Under the pieces are notes generated by a model. The model had not been told where the DNA came from and searched no databases. It was given only the letters and a program-made list of their open reading frames with translations. A DNA stretch of 64,000 bases from a virus, in IMG/VR virus record IMGVR_UViG_3300044825_002033, positions 1 through 64,000 of that record, one strand, 5' to 3'. Numbering within the stretch: position 1 is the stretch's first letter; every line of letters starts with the position of its first letter. Of the stretch, positions 10,946 through 40,559 are shown piece by piece. The translations under genes were made by a program, and so were the position numbers.

Positions 10946-11611
10946 TTAGTTATTTATTTCAATTCCATACTTTTGAGATAATTGTTTGTTTTGCTCTTGC
11001 ATTGATTGAAATCCTTTCACTTGAGCCCAACAAACAATACTATATCTGGTTCCTTTCGTGACTGGTTCTACACCATGACGATAATGATGATTGGAAGGAA
11101 AACAAACCATCATTCCTGGTTCTGGACGAATTCTAACTTTAAGTTCTGGAAAAACAAAGTCTCCACCATCAAAATCATCATTCAAAAACATTACAATCGA
11201 TAAGTCACGATCAATAGACTTTTTCCAAATCAATTCTCCCTCAGGTGTTCTCCATAAACTTTCTCCATCAATGTGAGGTTTATAGTGCCCACCAATTCCA
11301 TAAGAAAGCATCTGTGGCATTTCACTTTCAGAAATTTCAATACCATAAAAAGGATTGATAACTTCTTTGACTGTATTCTGAAATAAATCTATTATTTTAT
11401 CTTTAATTGGTTCATACTCAATAAATTGAGTATCTCTCATTTTTTTATCAACAATCCATTCAATTCCACCAGTTTTGTTGGATTTATCTGGATCAAAAAC
11501 AGAAAGATCTGTTGCTTCTGATGAACGAACGTGACTTAGAATTTCTTGAATTCCATTTTCATTAATCACGTTAGGTCGAATTAAAATATAAGAAAGTGGG
11601 TTATCAATCAT
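10946..11611 (-). CDS. 2-oxoglutarate/Fe(II) oxygenase, prolyl-4-hydroxylase-like
   Basis: About 221 residues from the ATG at 11611, preferred over the TTG at 11617. The metal triad of the 2OG-Fe(II) double-stranded beta-helix fold is complete: HID at 113-115 and a distal His at 179 in YRHGVEPV, followed by the 2-oxoglutarate-binding Arg at 189 in KGTRYS. The strand FLNDDFDGGDFVFPE is typical of the P4H/PiuC subgroup. It would hydroxylate a protein or small-molecule substrate. It starts 2 nt after the sulfotransferase stop, so it is part of the modification cassette. A hydroxylated fibre protein is one possible target, by inference only. Confidence 0.8.
   Translation of the reverse strand: MIDNPLSYILIRPNVINENGIQEILSHVRSSEATDLSVFDPDKSNKTGGIEWIVDKKMRDTQFIEYEPIKDKIIDLFQNTVKEVINPFYGIEISESEMPQMLSYGIGGHYKPHIDGESLWRTPEGELIWKKSIDRDLSIVMFLNDDFDGGDFVFPELKVRIRPEPGMMVCFPSNHHYRHGVEPVTKGTRYSIVCWAQVKGFQSMQEQNKQLSQKYGIEINN
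10951..10958 (-). promoter_or_regulatory. T4-type late promoter
   Basis: AATAAATA on the minus strand, inside the 3' end of the oxygenase gene and 25 nt before the ATG at 10926. Confidence 0.6.
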
Positions 11612-11613
11612 TA

Positions 11614-12435
11614 TCAATAATACCTATGATTTGGATTTTTCCAGTATTCTAAATTGCTGTACTTATTTAGAGTGAGGTCGGAAAGAATACTTTTTGGATC
11701 TTTTGATACTTTTTTAAGTTCTTTACGAACGTGATGCATATCCTTGAGATACCATTGATCATCTACTTCTCTATGTGTATTTTCAATATGATCAAAAGAA
11801 TGCTCATATGGTTTGAGATCTAGAAATTCATAAATTCGATTTAATGTCTCATTTGGAGATTGAATTAAATCATCATACTCAACCATTAGTAGATGTTTTT
11901 CGTGATCACCGCGAATAAATGCTTGAGACTGTGCCCAGAGTGCTTGCTCTACAATTCCATCTTTACTCATCAAATAGTCACATCGGGTATCATCATTAAT
12001 CGGAAGTCCTTTTTCAATTAGATGTTGATCAATAAATGAAACCTGATCAGAATTCCGACGAATCATTGAAATAAAAGATGTTAAGACTTCTGTGACATTT
12101 CTGACTGGACAGATGATCTTTGGATCTGGTGTAATGTAAGTCTTAATTCTTTCAATATTATTACTCCAGGCACGACAGTGATCAATGATGAATGGTTTTT
12201 CTGTGTCGAAATAATAGTCTTCAATGATTGATGAGATAACTTTATGTGCTGATTTTGGTTTTGGGTAACCAAGATATTGTTCACTGTCTATAAAGAAATG
12301 ATCATTCCAGTACATCAATTCCATTACAGGACTAACTGGTTCTGTATGAAGTTCTGGATTTTGATTCAGAATGCTTTTTAATAAAGTACTACCAGATCTT
12401 GGAAGACCTGCCATAAAGAAGTAAGTTTTATTCAT
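11614..12435 (-). CDS. PAPS-dependent sulfotransferase-like protein
   Basis: 273 residues. The 5'-phosphosulfate-binding loop GLPRSGSTLL is at residues 10-19 and the 3'-phosphate-binding CPVRNVTEVLTSF segment at about 110-122, both standard in Sulfotransfer_1/3 proteins. Such enzymes move a sulfuryl group from PAPS to sugars, tyrosine or other acceptors. The gene starts 1 nt after the DUF6445 gene and ends 2 nt before the oxygenase gene. The inferred product is a sulfated glycan or protein on the virion or host surface; the acceptor is unknown. Confidence 0.8.
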   Translation of the reverse strand: MNKTYFFMAGLPRSGSTLLKSILNQNPELHTEPVSPVMELMYWNDHFFIDSEQYLGYPKPKSAHKVISSIIEDYYFDTEKPFIIDHCRAWSNNIERIKTYITPDPKIICPVRNVTEVLTSFISMIRRNSDQVSFIDQHLIEKGLPINDDTRCDYLMSKDGIVEQALWAQSQAFIRGDHEKHLLMVEYDDLIQSPNETLNRIYEFLDLKPYEHSFDHIENTHREVDDQWYLKDMHHVRKELKKVSKDPKSILSDLTLNKYSNLEYWKNPNHRYY

Positions 12436-12436
12436 A

Positions 12437-13051
12437 TCACCAATCAGTAGGATTAAAAAAGAATAATTGAACTAAACGACCGTTTTCAAGAGTATGTCCA
12501 AAGTTATAATTGTGAGAATGCCATAGATTAGCATTGAAAATTACCAGACGATTATACTTCATTGGAGACAAAAGGTAACGTGTCCATTGGGAGCGATCTA
12601 ATCCTTCTCCATAAACAGTTGTCCACCATGCTTCTTTTGCAGAAGAATATCCCCATACATTTGCTTCAGTATCTAATGTTGGGCAGGTATCCATCTTTGT
12701 TTTATTGTGCATCCAAAATGAAGTTCCACCTTCATCTATGGTTTGTTCTGGTGTGTTGAGATAACAGACAGCACCATATTCCCAAACAGGATCAACGTGA
12801 ACATCCTGACGATAAGAATCTTTTTCGTAAGAGATTCTAAAGTATCCGTTTGGATTTGCTGGTGTTAGAGACTTGTTTAGAATTTTCTCAAATCTCTGGT
12901 GAAGTTCTTGAGGATAGTAACTTTCGTGAGAATTTCTTCCTGGATAAGTATATCCTTCTTGTGGTTCTGGATATGTGCAAGAGAGTGCAAACTGACGAAC
13001 TTCATCTGGATTGTGATGAAAATCATCAATTACAATAATATTGCGATTCAT
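12437..13051 (-). CDS. DUF6445-type putative 2OG-Fe(II) oxygenase
   Basis: 204 residues resembling the DUF6445 family of oxygenase-like proteins. A candidate metal site is HVD at 85-87 with the distal His at 178 in the LWHSHNY segment, and Arg192 could bind 2-oxoglutarate. The conserved stretch YNRLVIFNANLWHS recurs, changed, in the 168-residue protein at 21769-22275. First gene of the cassette DUF6445-sulfotransferase-oxygenase. No late promoter is visible; an extended -10 element lies 20 nt upstream. Confidence 0.65.
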   Translation of the reverse strand: MNRNIIVIDDFHHNPDEVRQFALSCTYPEPQEGYTYPGRNSHESYYPQELHQRFEKILNKSLTPANPNGYFRISYEKDSYRQDVHVDPVWEYGAVCYLNTPEQTIDEGGTSFWMHNKTKMDTCPTLDTEANVWGYSSAKEAWWTTVYGEGLDRSQWTRYLLSPMKYNRLVIFNANLWHSHNYNFGHTLENGRLVQLFFFNPTDW

Positions 13052-13070: not shown

Positions 13071-13079
13071 ATTATATCA
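13071..13079 (-). promoter_or_regulatory. Possible extended -10 promoter
   Basis: The minus strand reads TGATATAAT, a match to TGnTATAAT, overlapping the stop codon of the upstream repeat protein and 20 nt before the DUF6445 ATG. No good -35 is seen, so this is a weak call. Confidence 0.35.
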
Positions 13080-15974
13080 TACATTTGTTGCTTGTGCTTG
13101 AGTTCCTCTTACTGCGTTTCCTGTAGAACTTGATGCAGCAAGAGCACTACGAGCAACACTTAAGTTTGCACCAGGAACTGCTGCTGTGGTATCTGATGAA
13201 TAAGTGACCTTATCCATTGTTGATCTTGCACCGGGAGTTCCACCACCAAAGTATCCTGCTGTTGAATTGCCGGTTGCAGCAAGACCATAACGAGCAAGAC
13301 TTAAGTTTCCGCCAGGAATTCTTTCTGTTGTATCAGTTGAATAAGTGACCTTATCCATTGTTGAATATTGTGGAGAGCCAGTAGTACCACCACCAAAGTA
13401 TCCTGCTGTTGAATTGCCGGTTGCAGCAAGATCAAAACGAGCAACACTTAAGTTTGCACCAGGAACTGTTGATCTTGTATCAGTTGAATAAGTAACCTTA
13501 TCCATTGTTAAAAAATAATTAGGAATACCTGTAGTGCCGGCACCAAAGTATCCTGCTGTTGAATTTCCTGTTGCTGCAAGATAAGCACGAGCAGCACTTA
13601 ATGCTGCTCCAGGAACTGCTGCTGTTGTATCAGTGGAATAAGTGACCTTATCCATTGTTGAATGATCAGGAGCGCCAACATTACCACCACCAAAATATCC
13701 TGATGTTGAGTTTCCTGTTGCCGCCAAAGCTTGACGAGCAACAGTTAAGTTTGCTCCGGGAACTGCTGCAGTGGTATCTGATGAATAAGTGGTCTTATCC
13801 ATTGTTGAATAATATGGATTCAGACCACCACCAAAATATCCTGCTGTTGAGTTTCCTGTTGCAGCAAGTTGCCGACGTGCAACACTTAATGCTGCTCCGG
13901 GAACTGCTGCTGTGGTATCTGATGAATAAGTAACCTTCTCCATTGTTGAGGACTCGTTGAGTGAACTTACAAAACCACCACCAAAGTATCCACTATTGCC
14001 TTGAATTGCTTGTGGTGAGAGTGTGAATTCTTGTTGTGGCAATGCATTTGCTGTAGAACTTGATGCAGCAAGATTACGACGAGCAACACTTAATGCAGCA
14101 CCAGGAACTACTGATGTGGTATCTGATGAATAAGTAACCTTATCCATTGTTGAAAATGTAACACCAGGAGATATTCCACCACCAAAATATCCTGATGTTG
14201 AATTACCTGTTGCACTATGACCTCGACGAGCAACACTTAAGTTTGCTTCAGGAACTGTTGATCTTGTATCAGTGGAATAAGTGACCTTATCCATTGTTGA
14301 ATGAAATGAAGGACTAGAAGATATTCCACCACCAAAGTATCCTGATGTTGAGTTTCCTGTTGCCGCCAAAGCTTGACGAACAACACTTAAGTTTGCTCCA
14401 GGAACTGCTGCTGTGGTATCTGATGAATAAGTAAGCTTATCCGCTGTTGAACTAATACCACCAGGAGTGAAACCTCCACTAAAGTATCCTGATGTTGAGT
14501 TTCCTGTTGCAGCAAGAGCACTTCGAGCAGCACTTAATGCTGCTCCAGGAACGGCAACTGTTGTATCAGTTGAATAAGATACCTTATCCATTGTTGAATA
14601 ATATAACGGACCAGGAACAACACCACCACCAAAGTATCCAGATGTTGAGTTTCCTGTTGCTGCTACATCACGAGCAACACTTAATGCTGCACCAGGAACT
14701 GCTACTGTGGTATCAGTAGAATAAGATACCTTATCCATTGTTGAATAATATAACGGACCAGGAACAACACCACCACCAAAGTATCCATTACTTGAACTGC
14801 CAGTTGCACCAAGATAACGACGAGAAGCACTTAATGCGGCACCAGGAACTGCTACCGTGGTATCTGATGAATAAGTAACCTTATCCATTGTTGAAAATGA
14901 AATAGTGCCACCAGCATCAGTACCACCACCAAAATATCCAGAATTAAATGAAGATCCTTTAGATACAAAATTTCTACTACTTCTTAAGTCTGCTGCTGGT
15001 AATGCGTTGGCTCTTGCACTTGATGCAGCAGACGATGTACGAGCAGAAGTTAATGCTGCTCCAGGAACTGCTGCTGTGGTATCTGATGAATAAGTAACCT
15101 TATCCATTATTGATACTGGATTAGTGCCGCCACCAAAGTATCCTGCGGTAGAGTTTCCTGTTGCGGCAAGATCTCTACGAGCATTACTTAAGTTTGCTCC
15201 TGGAACTGTTGCTGTTGTATCTGATGAATAAGTAGTTTTTTCAACTAAACTTACAATAGCAAAACTAGAAGAAAAACCACCACCAAAATAACCATTAGTT
15301 GAATTGCCGGTTGCGGCAAGTTGGCGACGAGCATTACTTAATGCTGCACCAGGAACTGTTGATCTTGTATCAGTGGAATAAGTGACCTTATCCATTGTTG
15401 AAAGAATTAGTAATCCAGGAATCCCGCCGCCACCAAAGTATCCTGCTATTGAATTACCGGTTGCAGCAAGACTATAACGAGCAGCACTTAATGCTGCACC
15501 AGGAACTACTGCTGTTGTATCAGTTGAATAAGTAACCTTATCCATTGTTGAGAATTCTGGATTATTACCTCCACCAAAGTATCCTGCAGTTGAATTACCG
15601 GTTGCAGCAAGATTAAAACGCTGAGCACTTAAATTTCCAGTAGGAACTGCTGCTGTTGTATCTGTTGAATAAGTGACCTTATCCATTGTTGAATAATTAC
15701 CAAAACCACCACCAAAGTATCCTGCTATTGAATTACCGGTTGCAGCAAGACCATAACGAGGAACACGTAATGCTGCCCCAGGAACTGCTGCTGTGGTATC
15801 TGATGAATAAGTGACCTTATCCATTGTTGAGAATGGACCAGGAAAACCACCGCCAAAGTAACCAGTAAAAGGTGTTGGATCATTCGTCCATACTTCTTCA
15901 GGAGAAACCCAGTTATCATCTAACCGTCTTAAAATTACTTTAGATAGAACAAAGGCTCCCCTGGTCTCAACCAT
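13077..15974 (-). CDS. Kelch-like triple six-repeat propeller protein (copy 1)
   Basis: 965 residues. After a ~35-residue N-terminal anchor (shared WVSPEEVWTNDPTPFTGYF) come 18 repeats of about 46-49 residues. The repeat is GYFGGG, then a variable loop, then STMDKVTYSTDTT, VPGA.LS.AR and LAATGNS. This follows the kelch pattern (double Gly, hydrophobic strand, conserved Arg). The repeats fall into three groups of exactly six, separated by two constant linkers (ANALPAADLRSSRNF..., ~14935-15040; and a PQQEFTLSPQAIQGN type, ~13985-14065), so three six-bladed propellers are predicted. Repeats 2 and 3 of the middle group share the same loop. A late promoter is upstream. Probably a tail adhesin. Confidence 0.7.
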   Translation of the reverse strand: MVETRGAFVLSKVILRRLDDNWVSPEEVWTNDPTPFTGYFGGGFPGPFSTMDKVTYSSDTTAAVPGAALRVPRYGLAATGNSIAGYFGGGFGNYSTMDKVTYSTDTTAAVPTGNLSAQRFNLAATGNSTAGYFGGGNNPEFSTMDKVTYSTDTTAVVPGAALSAARYSLAATGNSIAGYFGGGGIPGLLILSTMDKVTYSTDTRSTVPGAALSNARRQLAATGNSTNGYFGGGFSSSFAIVSLVEKTTYSSDTTATVPGANLSNARRDLAATGNSTAGYFGGGTNPVSIMDKVTYSSDTTAAVPGAALTSARTSSAASSARANALPAADLRSSRNFVSKGSSFNSGYFGGGTDAGGTISFSTMDKVTYSSDTTVAVPGAALSASRRYLGATGSSSNGYFGGGVVPGPLYYSTMDKVSYSTDTTVAVPGAALSVARDVAATGNSTSGYFGGGVVPGPLYYSTMDKVSYSTDTTVAVPGAALSAARSALAATGNSTSGYFSGGFTPGGISSTADKLTYSSDTTAAVPGANLSVVRQALAATGNSTSGYFGGGISSSPSFHSTMDKVTYSTDTRSTVPEANLSVARRGHSATGNSTSGYFGGGISPGVTFSTMDKVTYSSDTTSVVPGAALSVARRNLAASSSTANALPQQEFTLSPQAIQGNSGYFGGGFVSSLNESSTMEKVTYSSDTTAAVPGAALSVARRQLAATGNSTAGYFGGGLNPYYSTMDKTTYSSDTTAAVPGANLTVARQALAATGNSTSGYFGGGNVGAPDHSTMDKVTYSTDTTAAVPGAALSAARAYLAATGNSTAGYFGAGTTGIPNYFLTMDKVTYSTDTRSTVPGANLSVARFDLAATGNSTAGYFGGGTTGSPQYSTMDKVTYSTDTTERIPGGNLSLARYGLAATGNSTAGYFGGGTPGARSTMDKVTYSSDTTAAVPGANLSVARSALAASSSTGNAVRGTQAQATNV
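13990..15040 (-). repeat. Middle repeat group of copy 1 with constant linkers
   Basis: Six ~140-147 bp direct repeats flanked by the two constant linkers. The DNA at ~14572-14640 is repeated almost base for base 147 bp further on (~14719-14787), which shows a recent duplication or conversion event. Confidence 0.65.
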
Positions 15975-16007
15975 AACTTATGTCTAACTCTTTATAAGGC
16001 ATAAATT

Positions 16008-16015
16008 TATTTATC
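16008..16015 (-). promoter_or_regulatory. T4-type late promoter
   Basis: GATAAATA on the minus strand, 34 nt before the ATG of propeller copy 1. Confidence 0.55.
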
Positions 16016-16028
16016 TTACACTGCATCA

Positions 16029-18866
16029 TCATACATTTGTTGCTTGTCCTTGAGTTCCTCTCACTGCATTTGCAACAGAACTTGATGCTGCAAGACCTTC
16101 ACGAGCAACACTTAATGCTGCTCCAGGAATTGTTGTTCTTGTATCAGTATAATAAGAAATTTTTTCCATTGTTGATTTTATAATACCATCCCATCCTCCA
16201 CCAAAGTATCCTGCTGTTGAATTTCCTGTCGCACCAAGAAGGTTACGACCAGTGCTTAAGTTTGCACTAGGTACTGCCTCTGTTGTATCCGTTGAATAGG
16301 TGACCTTATCCATTGTTGTGAAAGTAAAACCACCTCCAAAGTATCCAAATGAAGAATTACCTGTTGCAGCAAGATTACTACGGGCAAGACTTAAATTGCC
16401 ACCAGGGATTCTTGCAGTGGTATCAGTTGAATAAGTGACCTTGTTCATTGTAGATCTTGGACCAGGACCACCACCAAAGTATCCAAATGAAAAATTACCT
16501 GTTGCAGCAAGATTATAACTTGCCGCACTTAATGCTGCACCAGGAACTGCTACTGTGGTATCTGATGAATAAGTGACCTTATCCATTGTTGATACTGGGC
16601 CAGGAGCTCCACCACCAAAGTATCCTGCTATTGAATTGCCTGTTGCAGCAAGACGATTACGAGCAGCACTTAATGAAGCACCAGGAACTGCTACTGTGGT
16701 ATCAGTTGAATAAGTGACCTTATCCATTGTTGAATACAATGATGGACCCGGAGAAATTCCACCACCAAAGTATCCTGCGATTGAAGATCCTGTTGCTGCA
16801 ATATAAGTACGAATAACAGTTATTCCAGTTCCAGGAACTGCAGCAGTAGTATCTGATGAATAGGATAACTTATCTATTGTTGAATAATATGAACTGGCAA
16901 AAGCAGCAGCACCACCACCAAAGTATCCACTATTGCCTTGAATTGCTTGAGGTGAGAGTGTGATGTCCTGTTGGGGTATTGCGTTTGCTGTAGAACTTGA
17001 TGCTGCAAGATAAGCACGAGCAGCACTTAATGCTGCACCTGGAACTGCTGCTGTTGTATCAGTGGAATAAGTGACCTTATCCATTGTTGAATATGAAGGA
17101 GCACCACCACCAAAGTATCCAGCACTCGAATTACCTGTTGCAGCAAGACCATTACGAGCAACACTTAAGTTTGCACCAGGAACTGTTGATCTTGTATCAG
17201 TTGAATAAGTAACCTTATCTATTGTTGATGATGTAGGAGAACCACCACCAAAGTATCCAGATGTTGAGTTTCCTGTTGCTGCTAATTGTTGACGAGCAAC
17301 ACTTAATGCTGCTCCGGGAACTGCTGCTGTGGTATCAGTGGAATAAGTGACCTTATCCATTGTTGATCTTGGACCAGGAATACCTCCACCAAAGTATCCT
17401 GCAGTTAAAGATCCTGTTGCAGCAAGAGCACTTCGAGCAACACTTAATGCTGCTCCGGGAACTGCTGCTGTGGTATCAGTGAAATAAGTAACCTTATCCA
17501 TTGTTGAATAGGCGGTACTAACAAAACCACCACCAAAGTATCCTGCACTTGAATTACCTGTTGCAGCAAGACTATCACGAGCAACACTTAATGCTGCTCC
17601 GGGAACTGCTACTGTGGTATCTGATGAATAAGTAACCTTATCCATTGTTGAACGTAAAGGACTACTACCACCACCAAAGTATCCAGATGTTGAGTTTCCT
17701 GTTGCTGCTAGACGACTACGAGCAACACTTAATGCTGCTCCGGGAACTGCTGCTGTGGTGTCAGTTGAATAAGTAACCTTATCCATTGTTGATAATGGAC
17801 CACTACCACCACCAAAATACCCAGAATTAAATGAAGATCCTTTAGATACAAAATTTCTACTACTTCTTAAGTCTGCTGCTGGTAATGCGTTGGCTCTTGC
17901 ACTTGATGCCGCAAGAGAACTTCGAGCAACACTTAATGCTGCTCCTGGAACTGCTGCTGTGGTATCTGATGAATAAGTAACCTTATCCATTGTCGAGAGT
18001 GGACCACCAAAAACAGCACCACCACCAAAATATCCTGCTATTGAATTGCCGGTTGCAGCAAGACCATAACGAACAGCACTTAATGATGCACCAGGAACTA
18101 GTGCAGTGGTATCTAATGAATAAGTAATTTTATCAACATTTGATAAAGATGGAGAAGGACCACCACCAACAAAATATCCTGCTATTGAGTTTCCTGTTGC
18201 ACCTGCCTGGAAACGCTCAACACTTAAATTTCCAGTAGGAATTCTTGCTGTTGTATCCGTTGAATAAGTGACCTTATCCATTGTTGAATAATATATCGGA
18301 CCACCAGTAGCAAAACCACCACCAAAATAACCTGCTATTGAGTTTCCTGTTGCCGCAATACGACTACGACCATCACTTAATGCTGCACCAGGAACTGCTG
18401 CTGTGGTGTCAGTAGAATAAGTGACCTTATCCATTGTTGATCTTGCACCTGGACCACCACCACCAAAGTATCCTGCTATTGAATTACCGGTTGCACCAGG
18501 ACCATAACGAGCAGCACTCAATGCTGCTCCAGGAACTGCTACTGTGGTATCAGTGGAATAAATGACCTTATCCATTGTTGATACTGGGGCAGGAGTTCCA
18601 CCACCAAAGTATCCTGCTATTGAATTGCCTGTTGCAGCAAGACGATTACGAGCAGCACTTAATGCTGCTCCAGGAAATGTTGCTGTGGTATCAGTTGAAT
18701 AAGTGACCTTATCCATTGTTGAATACTCTGGAGAAGTACCACCACCAAAGTAACCAGTAAAAGGTGTTGGATCATTCGTCCATATTTCTTCAGGAGAAAT
18801 CCAGGTATTTTTTCTTATTCTACTACGAACATCAAGTAACCCGAAGACCCCTCTAGTATTAGGCAT
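16029..18866 (-). CDS. Kelch-like triple six-repeat propeller protein (copy 2)
   Basis: 945 residues, same plan as copies 1 and 3: an N-terminal segment ending in SPEEIWTNDPTPFTGYF, then 3 x 6 kelch-like repeats and a C-terminal ANAVRGTQGQATNV tail. The two linkers between groups are nearly identical to those of the paralogs (ANALPAADLRSSRNF at ~17815-17920; PQQDITLSPQAIQGN at ~16925-17000). Variation is concentrated in the loop after GYFGGG (3-13 residues of differing sequence) and in the two or three residues after LS.AR. One repeat has a degenerate GYFVGGG start with NVDKI instead of TMDKV. Its own late promoter lies upstream. Predicted virion adhesin; ligand unknown. Confidence 0.7.
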   Translation of the reverse strand: MPNTRGVFGLLDVRSRIRKNTWISPEEIWTNDPTPFTGYFGGGTSPEYSTMDKVTYSTDTTATFPGAALSAARNRLAATGNSIAGYFGGGTPAPVSTMDKVIYSTDTTVAVPGAALSAARYGPGATGNSIAGYFGGGGPGARSTMDKVTYSTDTTAAVPGAALSDGRSRIAATGNSIAGYFGGGFATGGPIYYSTMDKVTYSTDTTARIPTGNLSVERFQAGATGNSIAGYFVGGGPSPSLSNVDKITYSLDTTALVPGASLSAVRYGLAATGNSIAGYFGGGAVFGGPLSTMDKVTYSSDTTAAVPGAALSVARSSLAASSARANALPAADLRSSRNFVSKGSSFNSGYFGGGSGPLSTMDKVTYSTDTTAAVPGAALSVARSRLAATGNSTSGYFGGGSSPLRSTMDKVTYSSDTTVAVPGAALSVARDSLAATGNSSAGYFGGGFVSTAYSTMDKVTYFTDTTAAVPGAALSVARSALAATGSLTAGYFGGGIPGPRSTMDKVTYSTDTTAAVPGAALSVARQQLAATGNSTSGYFGGGSPTSSTIDKVTYSTDTRSTVPGANLSVARNGLAATGNSSAGYFGGGAPSYSTMDKVTYSTDTTAAVPGAALSAARAYLAASSSTANAIPQQDITLSPQAIQGNSGYFGGGAAAFASSYYSTIDKLSYSSDTTAAVPGTGITVIRTYIAATGSSIAGYFGGGISPGPSLYSTMDKVTYSTDTTVAVPGASLSAARNRLAATGNSIAGYFGGGAPGPVSTMDKVTYSSDTTVAVPGAALSAASYNLAATGNFSFGYFGGGPGPRSTMNKVTYSTDTTARIPGGNLSLARSNLAATGNSSFGYFGGGFTFTTMDKVTYSTDTTEAVPSANLSTGRNLLGATGNSTAGYFGGGWDGIIKSTMEKISYYTDTRTTIPGAALSVAREGLAASSSVANAVRGTQGQATNV

Positions 18867-18898
18867 TTTTTATAGTCGTCTTCCTATAAGCATAGTGT

Positions 18899-18906
18899 TA
18901 TTTATT
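18899..18906 (-). promoter_or_regulatory. T4-type late promoter
   Basis: AATAAATA on the minus strand, 33 nt before the ATG of propeller copy 2. Confidence 0.6.
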
Positions 18907-18908
18907 CT

Positions 18909-21776
18909 TTAAATCACTGTTGCTTGTGCTTGAGTTCCTCTTACTGCATTTGCTGTAGAACTTGATGCAGCTAGACTACTACGAGCAACACTTAATGCTG
19001 CTCCAGGAAATGTTGCTGTGGTATCAGTGGAATAAGTAACCTTATCCATTGTTGAATACTGACTAGAGGGAAGTTCATAACCACCACCAAAGTATCCTGC
19101 TGTTGAATTACCGGTTGCAGCAAGATTATAACGAGCAACACTTAATGCTGCACCTGGAACTGCTACTGTGGTATCAGTAGAATAAGTGAGTTTATCCATT
19201 CTTGTTGTTTTGGGAGAATACCCACCACCAAAGTATCCAACAGTTGAATTTCCGGTTGCACCAAGATAAGAACGACCAAAACTTAAGTTTGCTCCAGGAA
19301 CCGCTGCTGTCGTATCTGATGAATAAGTGACCTTATCCATTGTTGATTCACTGCCAAAACCGCCACCAAAGTATCCCACTATTGAATTACCAGTTGCGGC
19401 AGAACCAAAACGAGCAACACTTAATCTTGCTCCGGGAACTGCTGCAGTGGTATCAGTGGAATAAGTAACCTTATCCATTGTTGAATGATATAACGGACCA
19501 GGACCACTGGGGGATCCGCCACCACCAAAGTATCCTGCTATTTGATTACCGGTTGCGGCATAATACCAACGACCAGAACTTAAGTTTGCTCCAGGAACTG
19601 CTACTGTGGTATCTGATGAATAAGTGATCTTATCCATTGTTGTAACAACAGCACCGGGAGTAGTAGTACCACCACCAAAGTATCCTGCTACTGAGTTTCC
19701 TGTTGCAGCAAGATCACTACGAGAAACACTTAATCTTGCTCCGGGAACTGCTGCTGCTGTGGTGTCAGTTGAATAAGTAATCTTATCCATTGTTGATCTT
19801 GTACCAGGACTAATACCTCCACCAAAGTATCCAGTATTACCTTGAATTTCTTGAGGTGTTGTTGAGAAGTCCTGTTGGGGTATTGCGTTTGCTGTAGAAC
19901 TTGATGCAGCAAGATAACCACGAGCAGCACTTAATGCTGCTCCGGGAACTGCTGCTCTTGTATCAGATGAATAAGTGACTTTATCCGTTGTTGATCTTGA
20001 ACCAGGATTACCACCACCACCAAAGTATCCAGCAGTTGAGTTTCCTGTTGCGGCAAGATAACCACAGGCAACACTTAATACTGCTTCAGGAACTGCTGCT
20101 GTGGTATCAGTTGAATAAGTGACCTTTTCCATTGTTGAATAAAAACCGGGACTGCCTGGACCAAGGCCACCACCAAAGTATCCTGCAGTTGAATTGCCGG
20201 TTGCAGCAAGAGAATAACGAGCAACAGTTAAGTTTGCTCCAGGAACCGCTGCTGTGGTATCAGTTGAATAAGTGACCTTATCCATTGTTGATCTTGGACC
20301 AGGAAGACCACCACCAAAATAACCAGCAGTTGAGTTTCCTGTTGCTACTAAGTGTTGACGAGCAACACTTAATGCTGCTCCGGGAACTGCTGCTGTGGTA
20401 TCAGTGGAATAAGTGACCTTATCCATTGTTGAATAGGATGCAGGACCAGTAGGCTCACCACCACCAAAATAACCAGCAGTTGAGTTTCCTGTTGCAGCAA
20501 GATTATAACGAGCAGCACTTAATGCTGCACCAGGAACTGTTGTTCTTGTATCAGTTGAATAAGTAACCTTATCCATTGTTGAATAGGATGTAGGACCAGG
20601 AACAACAACAACACCACCACCAAAATAACCTGCTACTGAGTTTCCTGTTGCAGCAAGAGCATAACGAGCAACACTTAATGCTGCTCCGGGAACTGCTGCT
20701 GTGGTATCAGTGAAATAAGTAACCTTATCCATTGTTGAATAAGAGCTAAGACTAAAAAGACCACCACCAAAATACCCAGAATTAAATGAAGATCCTTTAG
20801 ATATAAAGTTTCTACTACTTCTTAAGTCTGCTGCTGGTAATGCGTTGGCTCTTGCACTTGATGCTGCCAAATTACGACGACCAGCACTTAATGCTGCACC
20901 AGGAACTGCTACTGTTGTATCTGATGAATAAGTAACCTTATCCATTGTTGATATATCGGTAAATCCTCCACCAAAATAACCTGCTATTGAGTTTCCTGTT
21001 GCAGCAAGATTAATACGAGCAACACTTAATGCTGCACCAGGAACTGCTGTTGTGGTATCTGATGAATAAGTTAACTTATCCATTAATGAAGAACTACCAC
21101 CACCACCAAAGTACCCTGCTATTGAGTTTCCCGTTGCTGCAAGTTGATTACGAGCAACACTTAATGCAGCACCAGGAACTGTTGATCTTGTATCAGTTGA
21201 ATAAGTAACCTTATCTACTATTGTATCACTACTAAAGTATCCTGCGATTGAGTTTCCTGTTGCGGCAAGATTAGAACGGGCAACACTTAATGATGCACCA
21301 GGAACTTGTGCTGTGGTATCTGATGAATAAGTAACCTTATCCATTGTTGATCTTGGACCAGGAACACCGCCACCAAAGTAACCTGCAGTTGAATTACCGG
21401 TTGCTCCTAAATTACGACGAGCAACACTTAATGACGCACCAGGAACTGCTGCTGTGGTATCTGATGAATAAGTGACCTTATCCATTAATGAAGAACCACC
21501 ACCACCACCAAAGTACCCTGCTATTGAGTTTCCTGTTGCAGAAAGACCATAACGAGCAGCACTTAATGCTGCACCAGGAATTGCTACTGTAGTATCAGTT
21601 GAATAAGTAACCTTATCCATTGTTGATATAGATCCACCAGGACCTTGCCCACCGCCAAAGTAACCAGTAAAAGGTGTCGGATCATTTGTCCATACTTCTT
21701 CAGAAAAAATCCAATTGTTATCTTTAATTTCTAACAGTATTTCCGATAAAACAAAAGTCCCCCTAGTTTCAACCAT
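18909..21776 (-). CDS. Kelch-like triple six-repeat propeller protein (copy 3)
   Basis: 955 residues with the same 3 x 6 repeat plan as the two downstream copies and the same linkers (ANALPAADLRSSRNF at ~20770-20870; PQQDFSTTPQEIQGN at ~19830-19905). Repeat 4 of the first group is shortened and lacks the triple Gly (GYFSSDTIVDKV), so one blade has an altered tip loop. The N-terminal EEVWTNDPTPFTGYF and C-terminal AVRGTQAQAT segments match the other copies and presumably attach the protein to the same place on the virion. The ATG overlaps the stop of the 168-residue oxygenase-like gene by 8 nt. Confidence 0.7.
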   Translation of the reverse strand: MVETRGTFVLSEILLEIKDNNWIFSEEVWTNDPTPFTGYFGGGQGPGGSISTMDKVTYSTDTTVAIPGAALSAARYGLSATGNSIAGYFGGGGGSSLMDKVTYSSDTTAAVPGASLSVARRNLGATGNSTAGYFGGGVPGPRSTMDKVTYSSDTTAQVPGASLSVARSNLAATGNSIAGYFSSDTIVDKVTYSTDTRSTVPGAALSVARNQLAATGNSIAGYFGGGGSSSLMDKLTYSSDTTTAVPGAALSVARINLAATGNSIAGYFGGGFTDISTMDKVTYSSDTTVAVPGAALSAGRRNLAASSARANALPAADLRSSRNFISKGSSFNSGYFGGGLFSLSSYSTMDKVTYFTDTTAAVPGAALSVARYALAATGNSVAGYFGGGVVVVPGPTSYSTMDKVTYSTDTRTTVPGAALSAARYNLAATGNSTAGYFGGGEPTGPASYSTMDKVTYSTDTTAAVPGAALSVARQHLVATGNSTAGYFGGGLPGPRSTMDKVTYSTDTTAAVPGANLTVARYSLAATGNSTAGYFGGGLGPGSPGFYSTMEKVTYSTDTTAAVPEAVLSVACGYLAATGNSTAGYFGGGGNPGSRSTTDKVTYSSDTRAAVPGAALSAARGYLAASSSTANAIPQQDFSTTPQEIQGNTGYFGGGISPGTRSTMDKITYSTDTTAAAVPGARLSVSRSDLAATGNSVAGYFGGGTTTPGAVVTTMDKITYSSDTTVAVPGANLSSGRWYYAATGNQIAGYFGGGGSPSGPGPLYHSTMDKVTYSTDTTAAVPGARLSVARFGSAATGNSIVGYFGGGFGSESTMDKVTYSSDTTAAVPGANLSFGRSYLGATGNSTVGYFGGGYSPKTTRMDKLTYSTDTTVAVPGAALSVARYNLAATGNSTAGYFGGGYELPSSQYSTMDKVTYSTDTTATFPGAALSVARSSLAASSSTANAVRGTQAQATVI

Positions 21777-22275
21777 TTTTTATAATTATCTTCTGAAAGA
21801 GCATAGAATTATTTAGATTAGTAGCATAAGAATGCCATAAATTACTTCTAAATAAGACCATTCGATTGTACTTTGCAACAATATTTCCATACTCTTTCCA
21901 TAAACTCAAATCAGAATTAAAGATTTCTAAAAGATTACTTTCATTAATCTGATATTTATTCATTTCTTCTGAAGTTGGAAATGTTTCAAGTCCTGTTGCA
22001 AGGTGCGAATAAAACTTAATTCCAGTCTCTCCAAATGATTGCATTGGCAATGTCAGATAAATGACTGCAATCCAATCAGATCTAAGATGTGCTACAACAC
22101 CAGAATCACCACCAACTTCATTAGTTGCACAAATGATTTCAATGGGATTTCCTATAACTTCTGTAATTTTACTCACAGTTTCGTCAGTAATCACACATTG
22201 ATTCTCAAAAAAACCTTTATGATATTGGTGTGGAATATCATAAAGGTTATCAACTATAATAATATGTTCTCTCAT
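21769..22275 (-). CDS. Degenerate DUF6445-like oxygenase-fold protein
   Basis: 168 residues. The segment YNRMVLFRSNLWHSYATN (His148) parallels YNRLVIFNANLWHSHNYN in the DUF6445 protein at 12437-13051, and HLRSDWIAVIYLT (63-75) parallels HVDPVWEYGAVCYLN there. In the position of the metal-binding Asp of HxD stands Arg65, although an Asp follows two residues later (67). The protein may therefore be catalytically dead or use a shifted ligand. It overlaps the next gene upstream by 4 nt (22272-22275) and propeller copy 3 by 8 nt, so it is tightly coupled to the adhesin. Confidence 0.55.
   Translation of the reverse strand: MREHIIIVDNLYDIPHQYHKGFFENQCVITDETVSKITEVIGNPIEIICATNEVGGDSGVVAHLRSDWIAVIYLTLPMQSFGETGIKFYSHLATGLETFPTSEEMNKYQINESNLLEIFNSDLSLWKEYGNIVAKYNRMVLFRSNLWHSYATNLNNSMLFQKIIIKNG
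21810..21817 (-). promoter_or_regulatory. T4-type late promoter (TCTAAATA variant)
   Basis: TCTAAATA on the minus strand, inside the 3' end of the 168-residue gene and 34 nt before the ATG of propeller copy 3. The CTAAATA variant recurs at 27881 and 40464. Confidence 0.5.
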
Positions 22276-39125: not shown

Positions 39126-39746
39126 TTACCACTTCTGCTCTTCCCACGTCAACTTTTTTTTCAATTCTTTATCAAACATCATCAAGTACCTATGTTTTCT
39201 GCTTCTTTCTCTCCACTCACCTTCCACACCTTTAGTCGGTCCTCTTGAGTGTTTTATAAATGAACCATCGGATTGTTTGATCCAGAAGTCTGATTTCCTA
39301 TCAGTCAGACCGTAATACTTGAAATTTGTTGCACGATATATGATTCCAGTGTGGTGAGAAAAGTCAGCATAACTAAGAATAGCACGAACGCGGGCATCTT
39401 TTCTAAATCTCCTTATACAACGACTGACGAACCAAGATGTGATATTATATTCTTCTTTTTGAATATCTGGATGTATACAAAGTCTTGAGAGTTCGTATAT
39501 ACCTTCTTGTTGATTTCTTTCTAGACCAAAAGCACCTACTGCTATTTCCGGGACTGGTAACCCAGTAAAGATACAAGTGCCCAAGCACCCACCAATCCTA
39601 AGAATATCAGAAACTGAGGATCTGAAAAGCCCATAATTGAAACCAGATTTAAAATCTTTTGATTCGTCTTTAAGATAATGATAGGTATAAAGAAGTTCTT
39701 TGATTTCTTCTTTACCTACTCTATCTATAAAGTAATCTTGTTTCAT
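39126..39746 (-). CDS. Mom-like GNAT-fold protein, possible DNA adenine modification
   Basis: 206 residues matching the Mom pattern of the GNAT superfamily: ELSRLCIHPD at 85-94, SYADFSHHTG at 125-134, then IYRATNFKYYG at 136-146 and a C-terminal RKHRYLMMF segment. In phage Mu, Mom converts adenine in DNA to a carbamoylmethyl derivative that blocks restriction. Whether this protein acts on DNA is an inference. It is the last gene of the early-type island before a strong terminator, fitting a protective modification made soon after infection. GNAT-type acetylation of another target is the alternative. No separate promoter is visible. Confidence 0.65.
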   Translation of the reverse strand: MKQDYFIDRVGKEEIKELLYTYHYLKDESKDFKSGFNYGLFRSSVSDILRIGGCLGTCIFTGLPVPEIAVGAFGLERNQQEGIYELSRLCIHPDIQKEEYNITSWFVSRCIRRFRKDARVRAILSYADFSHHTGIIYRATNFKYYGLTDRKSDFWIKQSDGSFIKHSRGPTKGVEGEWRERSRKHRYLMMFDKELKKKLTWEEQKW

Positions 39747-40077: not shown

Positions 40078-40095
40078 TTGGAGTTATAAACTCAG

Positions 40096-40167
40096 AGCCC
40101 CCGACCGGAATTGAACCAGCGACAAACGGTTTACAAAACCGTTGCTCTACCACTGAGCTACAAGGGC
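40096..40167 (-). tRNA. tRNA-Thr (UGU)
   Basis: 72-nt cloverleaf: acceptor GCCCTTG pairs with CGGGGGC (two G-U), D-arm GCTC/GAGC with GTGG loop, anticodon arm ACGGT/ACCGT with loop TTTGTAA giving anticodon UGU, T-arm GCTGG/CCGGT with TTCAATT loop. No CCA is encoded. UGU reads ACA, a codon favoured in AT-rich phage genes. Confidence 0.9.
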
Positions 40168-40169
40168 AT

Positions 40170-40439
40170 TTAATCAACAGGCAACATTTCTGGATTTTCT
40201 AAATCTAACTCATAAAGCAAAGGATGGCATTCTTCAAGCATTAGATAATATGATGCTTGATATAAATCCTCTGGTTCATATCTTCTTTCGTTATCTGCTA
40301 ATTTGATTAACTCTAAGTCGAATAAAGATTCGTCATCGAGTTCATCAAAAGTGAATGGGATTGAATTTATAAAGTACATTAAAACAATTTGTTTTCCGCG
40401 ATTGTACCAGACATATGCGGCATCAATTCTGTACTTCAT
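40170..40439 (-). CDS. Small acidic protein, unknown function
   Basis: 89 residues, very acidic in the second half (DELDDESLFDLELIKL, then ECHPLLYELDLENPE). Not recognised. It lies between tRNA-Leu and tRNA-Thr and carries its own late-type element (TCTAAATA, 40464-40471) 25 nt upstream, so it may be expressed both from the early promoter at 41041 and late. Confidence 0.5.
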   Translation of the reverse strand: MKYRIDAAYVWYNRGKQIVLMYFINSIPFTFDELDDESLFDLELIKLADNERRYEPEDLYQASYYLMLEECHPLLYELDLENPEMLPVD

Positions 40440-40463
40440 AGGAGTTTTCCTACTACTTTTGAT

Positions 40464-40471
40464 TATTTAGA
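40464..40471 (-). promoter_or_regulatory. T4-type late promoter (TCTAAATA variant)
   Basis: TCTAAATA on the minus strand, between tRNA-Leu and the 89-residue gene, 25 nt before its ATG. Confidence 0.45.
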
Positions 40472-40483
40472 GGATAAACCTCA

Positions 40484-40557
40484 TAGGCGTGGTGGGATTC
40501 GAACCCACACTTTATTGATTTTAAGTCAATTTTCTCTGCCGGTTGGAATACACGCCC
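40484..40557 (-). tRNA. tRNA-Leu (UAA) with short variable loop
   Basis: A 74-nt cloverleaf: acceptor GGGCGTG with CACGCCT (G1-U72 wobble), anticodon stem ATTGA/TCAAT with loop CTTAAAA giving anticodon UAA, T-arm GTGGG/CCCAC with TTCGAAT, discriminator A. The D-stem has only three pairs (TTC/GAA). The variable region is about 5 nt, although bacterial tRNA-Leu normally has a long variable arm; the anticodon and A73 nevertheless fit Leu. Functionality is somewhat uncertain. Confidence 0.75.
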
Positions 40558-40559
40558 AT

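Follow-up and report, generated by a model that had tools for sequence, protein, structure and literature searches.

Three adjacent open reading frames on the minus strand, at 13077-21776 of the window (the whole 64,000-nucleotide stretch that was analyzed, positions 1 to 64,000 of IMG/VR record IMGVR_UViG_3300044825_002033), each carry 18 kelch-like repeats arranged 6+6+6, and raise the question of what structure such repeats build, how the variation within them arises, and where the proteins act. The 71-kb record also encodes two Pfam Photo_RC proteins at 68.6-71.0 kb, psbD-like and truncated psbA-like (the assignment of the two genes to psbD and psbA being our own reading), together with cyanophage-type tail genes, and the host is therefore a marine cyanobacterium; the kelch genes stand among tail-fibre genes. 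Elsewhere in the window, a Mom-like DNA modification gene (39126-39746) adjoins tRNA-Thr and tRNA-Leu genes (40095-40558). The three genes and their parts are as follows.

18909..21776, minus strand: kelch-propeller gene C, transcribed ahead of B and A; 955 aa, 18 blades
21666-21776, minus strand: N-terminal anchor of gene C, of the same kind as that of gene B
20856..21665, minus strand: gene C group 1, six repeats; predicted propeller, from repeat boundaries
19899..20777, minus strand: gene C group 2, six repeats; predicted propeller, from repeat boundaries
18960..19832, minus strand: gene C group 3, six repeats; predicted propeller, from repeat boundaries
16029..18866, minus strand: kelch-propeller gene B, 945 aa, 18 blades
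18756..18866, minus strand: N-terminal anchor of gene B, M..TRGVF.L...W....EIW
17901..18755, minus strand: gene B group 1, six repeats; predicted propeller, from repeat boundaries
16995..17822, minus strand: gene B group 2, six repeats; closed six-bladed kelch propeller in the AlphaFold2 model, with Foldseek matches
16080..16928, minus strand: gene B group 3, six repeats; predicted propeller, from repeat boundaries
13077..15974, minus strand: kelch-propeller gene A, 965 aa, 18 blades
15864-15974, minus strand: N-terminal anchor of gene A, of the same kind as that of gene B
15018..15863, minus strand: gene A group 1, six repeats; predicted propeller, from repeat boundaries
14058..14939, minus strand: gene A group 2, six repeats, from repeat boundaries; loop VVPGPLYY common to repeats 8 and 9
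13128..13991, minus strand: gene A group 3, six repeats; predicted propeller, from repeat boundaries

The repeat unit reads GYFGGG-[loop]-STMDKVTYSTDTTAAVPGAALSVAR-[XX]-LAATGNSTA, and each repeat begins with GYF. The initial annotation had described exactly 18 repeats per gene in three groups of six, and the open reading frames and the GYF counts agree with that description; the breaks fall after repeats 6 and 12 in all three genes. The repeat length of 46-49 residues given there proved slightly too narrow, with a measured spacing of 42-53 residues within groups and 64-71 residues for the linker-bearing repeats. Column comparison of the repeats confirmed a near-constant framework and a variable loop after GYFGGG. 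Linkers and termini, described as common to the three genes, are indeed shared, but they are not identical. An N-terminal anchor of ∼30 residues was carried by 25 of the 25 full kelch genes that we compared. When IMG/VR was scanned with the anchor motif, 21 loci matched, and almost all of them lay on contigs already in the kelch set; in the ORFs of the loci retrieved first, no anchor was seen on other virion proteins.

The arrangement in sixes is not due to chance: dozens of genes in related phages show it too, and over 14,835 bases the window is identical to another IMG/VR contig. When a repeat profile was applied to all fetched loci and complete ORFs were clustered at 90% identity, 47 of 52 distinct complete ORFs held 6, 12, 18, 24, 30, or 36 repeats (n = 5, 10, 22, 6, 3, and 1, respectively), and 139 blocks between linkers consisted of exactly six repeats; the nominal p of 3e-31 for this rule of six is overstated because the sequences are related. 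The five exceptions were three ORFs of S-SKS1, one gene of contig L100, and contig L013. The L100 gene has one weak repeat that the profile missed and holds 18 on the other count. These counts suggest that propeller rings are gained or lost whole. Distant members of the family carry groups of six inside proteins of 1,700-2,300 residues with fibrous SGNIASG or Asp-box-like repeats.

Several of these loci have peculiarities of their own. The sole clear break of the rule, L013 (48-3605), has 22 repeats (6,6,4,6) and represents either a real two-blade deletion or a collapsed assembly. In the cultured cyanophage S-SKS1 (HQ633071, L044 47-6192), the kelch ORFs are seemingly split by frame breaks into 9+3 and 3+9 repeats; contig L080 has intact 12/12/12 counterparts with similar N-termini, and the breaks may be either real decay or sequencing errors. 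In one 2,257-aa protein (L087, 1303-8073), two six-blade kelch groups stand beside numerous Asp-box-like repeats and proline-threonine linkers, so that two propeller types are mixed in an unusual way. A bacterial origin was considered and rejected: in a single scan of genome contigs, the one match lay on a MAG contig resembling phage contig L096. That contig (L045, DYLN01000029.1, labelled as a Melioribacter roseus MAG) contains a six-repeat kelch ORF whose length, repeat spacing, and termini are as in L096, and it probably comes from a phage and was binned with a bacterial MAG by mistake.

Structure prediction, which had been proposed as a check on the initial annotation, showed six-bladed closure for the middle group of gene B. 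The AlphaFold2 model of this group (16971-17849), built from an alignment with 64 propellers from related loci, is a closed six-bladed kelch propeller with a pLDDT of 93.2 and a pTM of 0.92. The best Foldseek matches were SAKe, KLHL3, KLHL12, and Keap1 (TMq 0.80-0.84, E down to 1.3e-19), with sequence identities of 14-24% among the matches listed. At the sequence level, phmmer matched the designed kelch protein 7q58 (E=2.5e-8); Pfam kelch profiles gave no match up to E=10, and NCBIfam and Pfam offered no usable family name for the repeats. The double glycine that ends strand B and the tyrosine of strand C are present, with GYFGGG and DKVTYS invariant or nearly so, and the strand D tryptophan of the kelch fold is absent, its position being occupied by AVPGA. 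Each group runs B-C-D, then five times A-B-C-D, then A; closure by strand A, as in Keap1, is suggested by this sequence order and by the strand order of the gene B model. A full-length model built with 15 homologues was unusable (pLDDT 33), so the other eight propellers are predicted from sequence likeness to share the fold of gene B group 2. Of the nine six-bladed propellers originally proposed, one has thus been modelled, and the multiple-of-six rule for the family is in keeping with the remaining eight.

Two places in each blade are hypervariable, namely the B-C loop after GYFGGG and a dipeptide after SVAR in the D-A connection, the latter having been overlooked in the initial annotation. 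The column entropies of the dipeptide (3.24 and 3.14 bits) approach that of the most variable loop columns (3.51 bits). Across the family the loops are mostly 3-9 residues long and 19% proline, with 330 distinct loops in 431 repeats. On the opposite face, the A-B and C-D turns are conserved. In Keap1, the DA and BC loops form the substrate pocket, and the contact residues are Ser363, Arg380, Asn382, Arg415, Arg483, and Ser508 (PMC4668279). Within the window, pN/pS values, which are uncorrected and come from repeats that are not independent, were 0.31 for the framework, 2.2 for the dipeptide (bootstrap 1.5-3.8), and 1.5 for the loop columns, whose alignment is loose. In four other phages (L010, L012, L017, and L025) the dipeptide gave values of 1.4-2.5. 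The contrast between 2.2 and 0.31 points to diversifying selection at the dipeptide. We take the Keap1 contacts to sit either in the BC loop or in the pair of residues that follows a conserved arginine of the D-A connection, and so to correspond to the two hypervariable places.

The blades also appear to be shuffled by short gene conversion, because linkage between silent sites is gone within about 20 nt and a natural loop swap has its match in the same gene. At fourfold sites, repeats of one gene were no more alike than repeats from different genes. The association between silent sites (n*r2) was about 6 for sites no more than 6 nt apart and about 1.3, near background, for those more than 12 nt apart, and all four combinations were found in 68-100% of silent-site pairs; shuffles of site positions gave p<0.001 for the window and for contig L009. 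Multi-base mutations could be a source of the short-range association. The loop swap was found among three contigs that are 99.7-99.9% identical (L027, L028, and L029). L027 and L029 have 12 differences, five of them within 54 nt of one blade, where the loop FPGPV is replaced by NPGPL. This replacement sets L027 apart from L028/L029, and the new 17-nt loop sequence is also present elsewhere in the gene, in a different blade. Since the repeats are about 141 nt long, such loop exchange could partly reflect short-read mis-assembly.

Comparison among related phages, also suggested at the outset, showed that the blades turn over independently of their surroundings. The flanking proteins of L022 and L025 are 94% and 91% identical to those of the window, and all loops differ when matching positions are compared by eye. 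Identical loops in related phages, the outcome that the initial annotation had named as a refutation, were confined to contigs that are almost the same throughout (99.7-100% identity in the part compared). The framework similarity of L025 to the window (0.73) is below that of most phages with flanks of only 70-79% identity (0.77-0.86 for most). The N-terminal anchors stay orthologous while the blades turn over, L025a grouping with gene C and L025b with gene B. The initial annotation had proposed both a shuffled array and a swapping of whole paralogs: shuffling is upheld by the linkage decay, the four-gamete counts, the loop swap with a same-gene donor, and the decoupling of blades from flanking genes, whereas paralog swapping is not borne out, given the orthology of the anchors.

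Silent codons in the repeats are column-specific and common across phages, with GAT in 389 of 390 cases at one Asp and ACA in 357 of 366 at one Thr; another Thr column mixes four codons. Between phages, codon identity at the same residue was 0.70 in repeats versus 0.47 in anchors. Exchange among phages or a constraint at the DNA level is a possible cause of the column-fixed codons. The codons in question (AAG for Lys, CGT for Arg, and TCA for Ser) often run against the phage's own codon usage. Conserved RNA hairpins were considered as a cause and found unsupported, with z = -0.97 for a single consensus unit. With codons shuffled at gene level, z lay between -2.5 and -6.4 for seven of the eight kelch genes, a measure that multiplies one pattern many-fold and that also reached -4.3 in one control gene.

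Could such variation have arisen in some other way? Neutral drift of unconstrained surface residues on a conserved fold, with neither selection for diversity nor shuffling, would account for loops that vary in length and sequence, and surface loops do tolerate change. We regard this as improbable, since at the dipeptide there are about two amino-acid-changing differences for every silent one, in the window as in most of the phages tested, the first and second codon bases vary more than the third, the A-B and C-D turns of the other face are conserved, and linkage decays over so short a distance. Most dipeptide codons have the form NNT and vary at bases 1 and 2, as would be expected if a diversity-generating retroelement wrote in the variation from an AAT target. 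No reverse transcriptase (RVT_1) was found in the 71-kb record or in five related records, which include contigs of 219-226 kb; the records may be incomplete. The retroelement reading is largely refuted. The loops, moreover, vary in length, adenines right beside the dipeptide stay fixed, and codons other than NNT occur, e.g., AGA and CAA, which leaves a retroelement the least credible of the sources considered.

Where the proteins act is a separate matter. Kelch domains are protein-binding platforms and poxvirus kelch proteins are among the structural matches, so one might suppose that the phage proteins, like those of poxviruses, act inside the infected cell on host proteins, as anti-defence decoys or adaptors, and never join the virion. 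We consider this unlikely: no BTB or similar partner domain was found attached (Pfam), the window genes lie in a tail-fibre neighborhood, and related propellers are built into long fibre-like proteins with long fibrous repeats. Among the structural matches are proteins whose jumbo-phage annotation is virion structural. Kelch proteins with a reported or annotated structural role occur in CBB, PhiPA3, and Noxifer, and that of CBB has been detected in virions by mass spectrometry (PMC5259590). These are hints of a virion location for the window proteins as well.

The kelch genes form part of a conserved cassette that includes 2OG oxygenases and, in many cases, a sulfotransferase; it is represented in the window by the following genes.

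21769..22275, minus strand: DUF6445-like gene (DUF6445b), 168 aa; Pfam PF20043 2e-7; shares 8 nt with the start of gene C
12437..13051, minus strand: DUF6445-like, 2OG-type gene, 204 aa; Pfam PF20043 6.6e-15; conserved HVD ... WHS; directly after gene A
11614..12435, minus strand: sulfotransferase; Pfam Sulfotransfer_3 1.3e-17; member of the conserved cassette
10946..11617, minus strand: 2OG-Fe(II) oxygenase; PHROG 61 1.4e-39; HxD...HGVEPVTxGxR

In related loci, the gene directly upstream of a kelch gene was DUF6445b in 10 of 25 cases, a sulfotransferase in seven, and another kelch gene in four; directly downstream were a 2OG oxygenase (17), DUF6445a (six), or a kelch gene (four). The overlap of DUF6445b with the kelch start suggests translational coupling. 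The motif of the 2OG-Fe(II) oxygenase resembles, on our reading of its conserved residues, a prolyl-hydroxylase signature. The upstream DUF6445-like protein (21769-22275) and its relatives do not have the HxD of the sister protein at 12437-13051 and show a conserved AHLxxDW instead; although a frequent upstream neighbor of kelch genes, it may not be an active oxygenase. That the cassette enzymes modify the propellers would be a guess from their adjacency.

We hold with moderate confidence that the best explanation of the whole is a set of propeller chains diversified by selection and conversion, likely serving as host-recognition proteins of the virion. Each of the three genes would encode the ∼30-residue N-terminal anchor followed by a chain of three six-bladed kelch-fold propellers with short linkers between them. 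Each group would open with strands B-C-D of its first blade and end with an extra strand A, giving a Keap1-like closure. Selection, together with short gene-conversion exchanges between blades of one gene or of sister genes, would diversify the face formed by the B-C loop and the D-A dipeptide, with the framework and the count of six held constant throughout. Most likely the proteins would belong to the virion and act there as binding proteins, fibre-like or decorative, an adhesin role being plausible, and their ligands would be variable surface structures of the cyanobacterial host. As the least certain step, the neighboring 2OG oxygenases and sulfotransferase may modify the proline-rich loops and the tyrosine-rich dipeptide. 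The kelch-propeller proteins are thus probably a rapidly renewed set of binding proteins for host recognition. More tentatively, and with some doubt on our part, they might form a repertoire that resembles antigen receptors yet needs no reverse transcriptase, in which a fixed ring, selected contacts of the Keap1 type, and gene conversion are joined by hydroxylating and sulfating enzymes that add variety.

The family provides a natural test case for a rigid repeat fold used as a renewable binding surface, in which framework, ring size, and contacts are each legible in the sequence on their own. Should these proteins prove to be fibres for host recognition, the dipeptides and loops would allow the cyanobacterial host range of a phage to be related to its genotype, and natural kelch binders could be drawn from the family.

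Phage kelch proteins are already known; we did not find the present organization and mode of diversification described in the literature. Like the kelch domains of Keap1/KLHL and SAKe, the phage propellers have six four-stranded blades, the double glycine of strand B, the tyrosine of strand C, and a ligand face made from B-C and D-A loops (PMC4668279); unlike them, they have neither the strand D tryptophan nor a Pfam kelch match, and they place several propellers in a row with hypervariable contact positions. The kelch proteins of the jumbo phages CBB, PhiPA3, Noxifer, and BcepSaruman are likewise phage-encoded propellers, one found in virions (PMC5259590) and some annotated as structural; they are 265-701 aa among the matches listed, and we found no report for them of six-multiple strings of rings, a conserved anchor, or blade shuffling. 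PHROG 19111 and the kelch ORFs of Synechococcus phage S-SKS1 belong to the same repeat family (E=3e-143 or better; 43-44% identity) and have the same cassette partners, but their function is listed as unknown and the S-SKS1 copies resemble frame-broken 12-blade types. Recently amplified, highly repetitive beta-propellers, which include the Kelch superfamily and viruses, acquire near-identical blades by amplification (PMC9218822), whereas in the phage kelch proteins the face residues diverge and strings of six-blade rings are kept intact. A parallel in tempo exists with the metaviromic islands at host-recognition genes of marine phages, which turn over rapidly in an otherwise stable genome (PMC3909814); fast turnover against a stable genome is seen here as well, but the variable unit is the blade loop within a conserved ring, and the role in recognition is putative.
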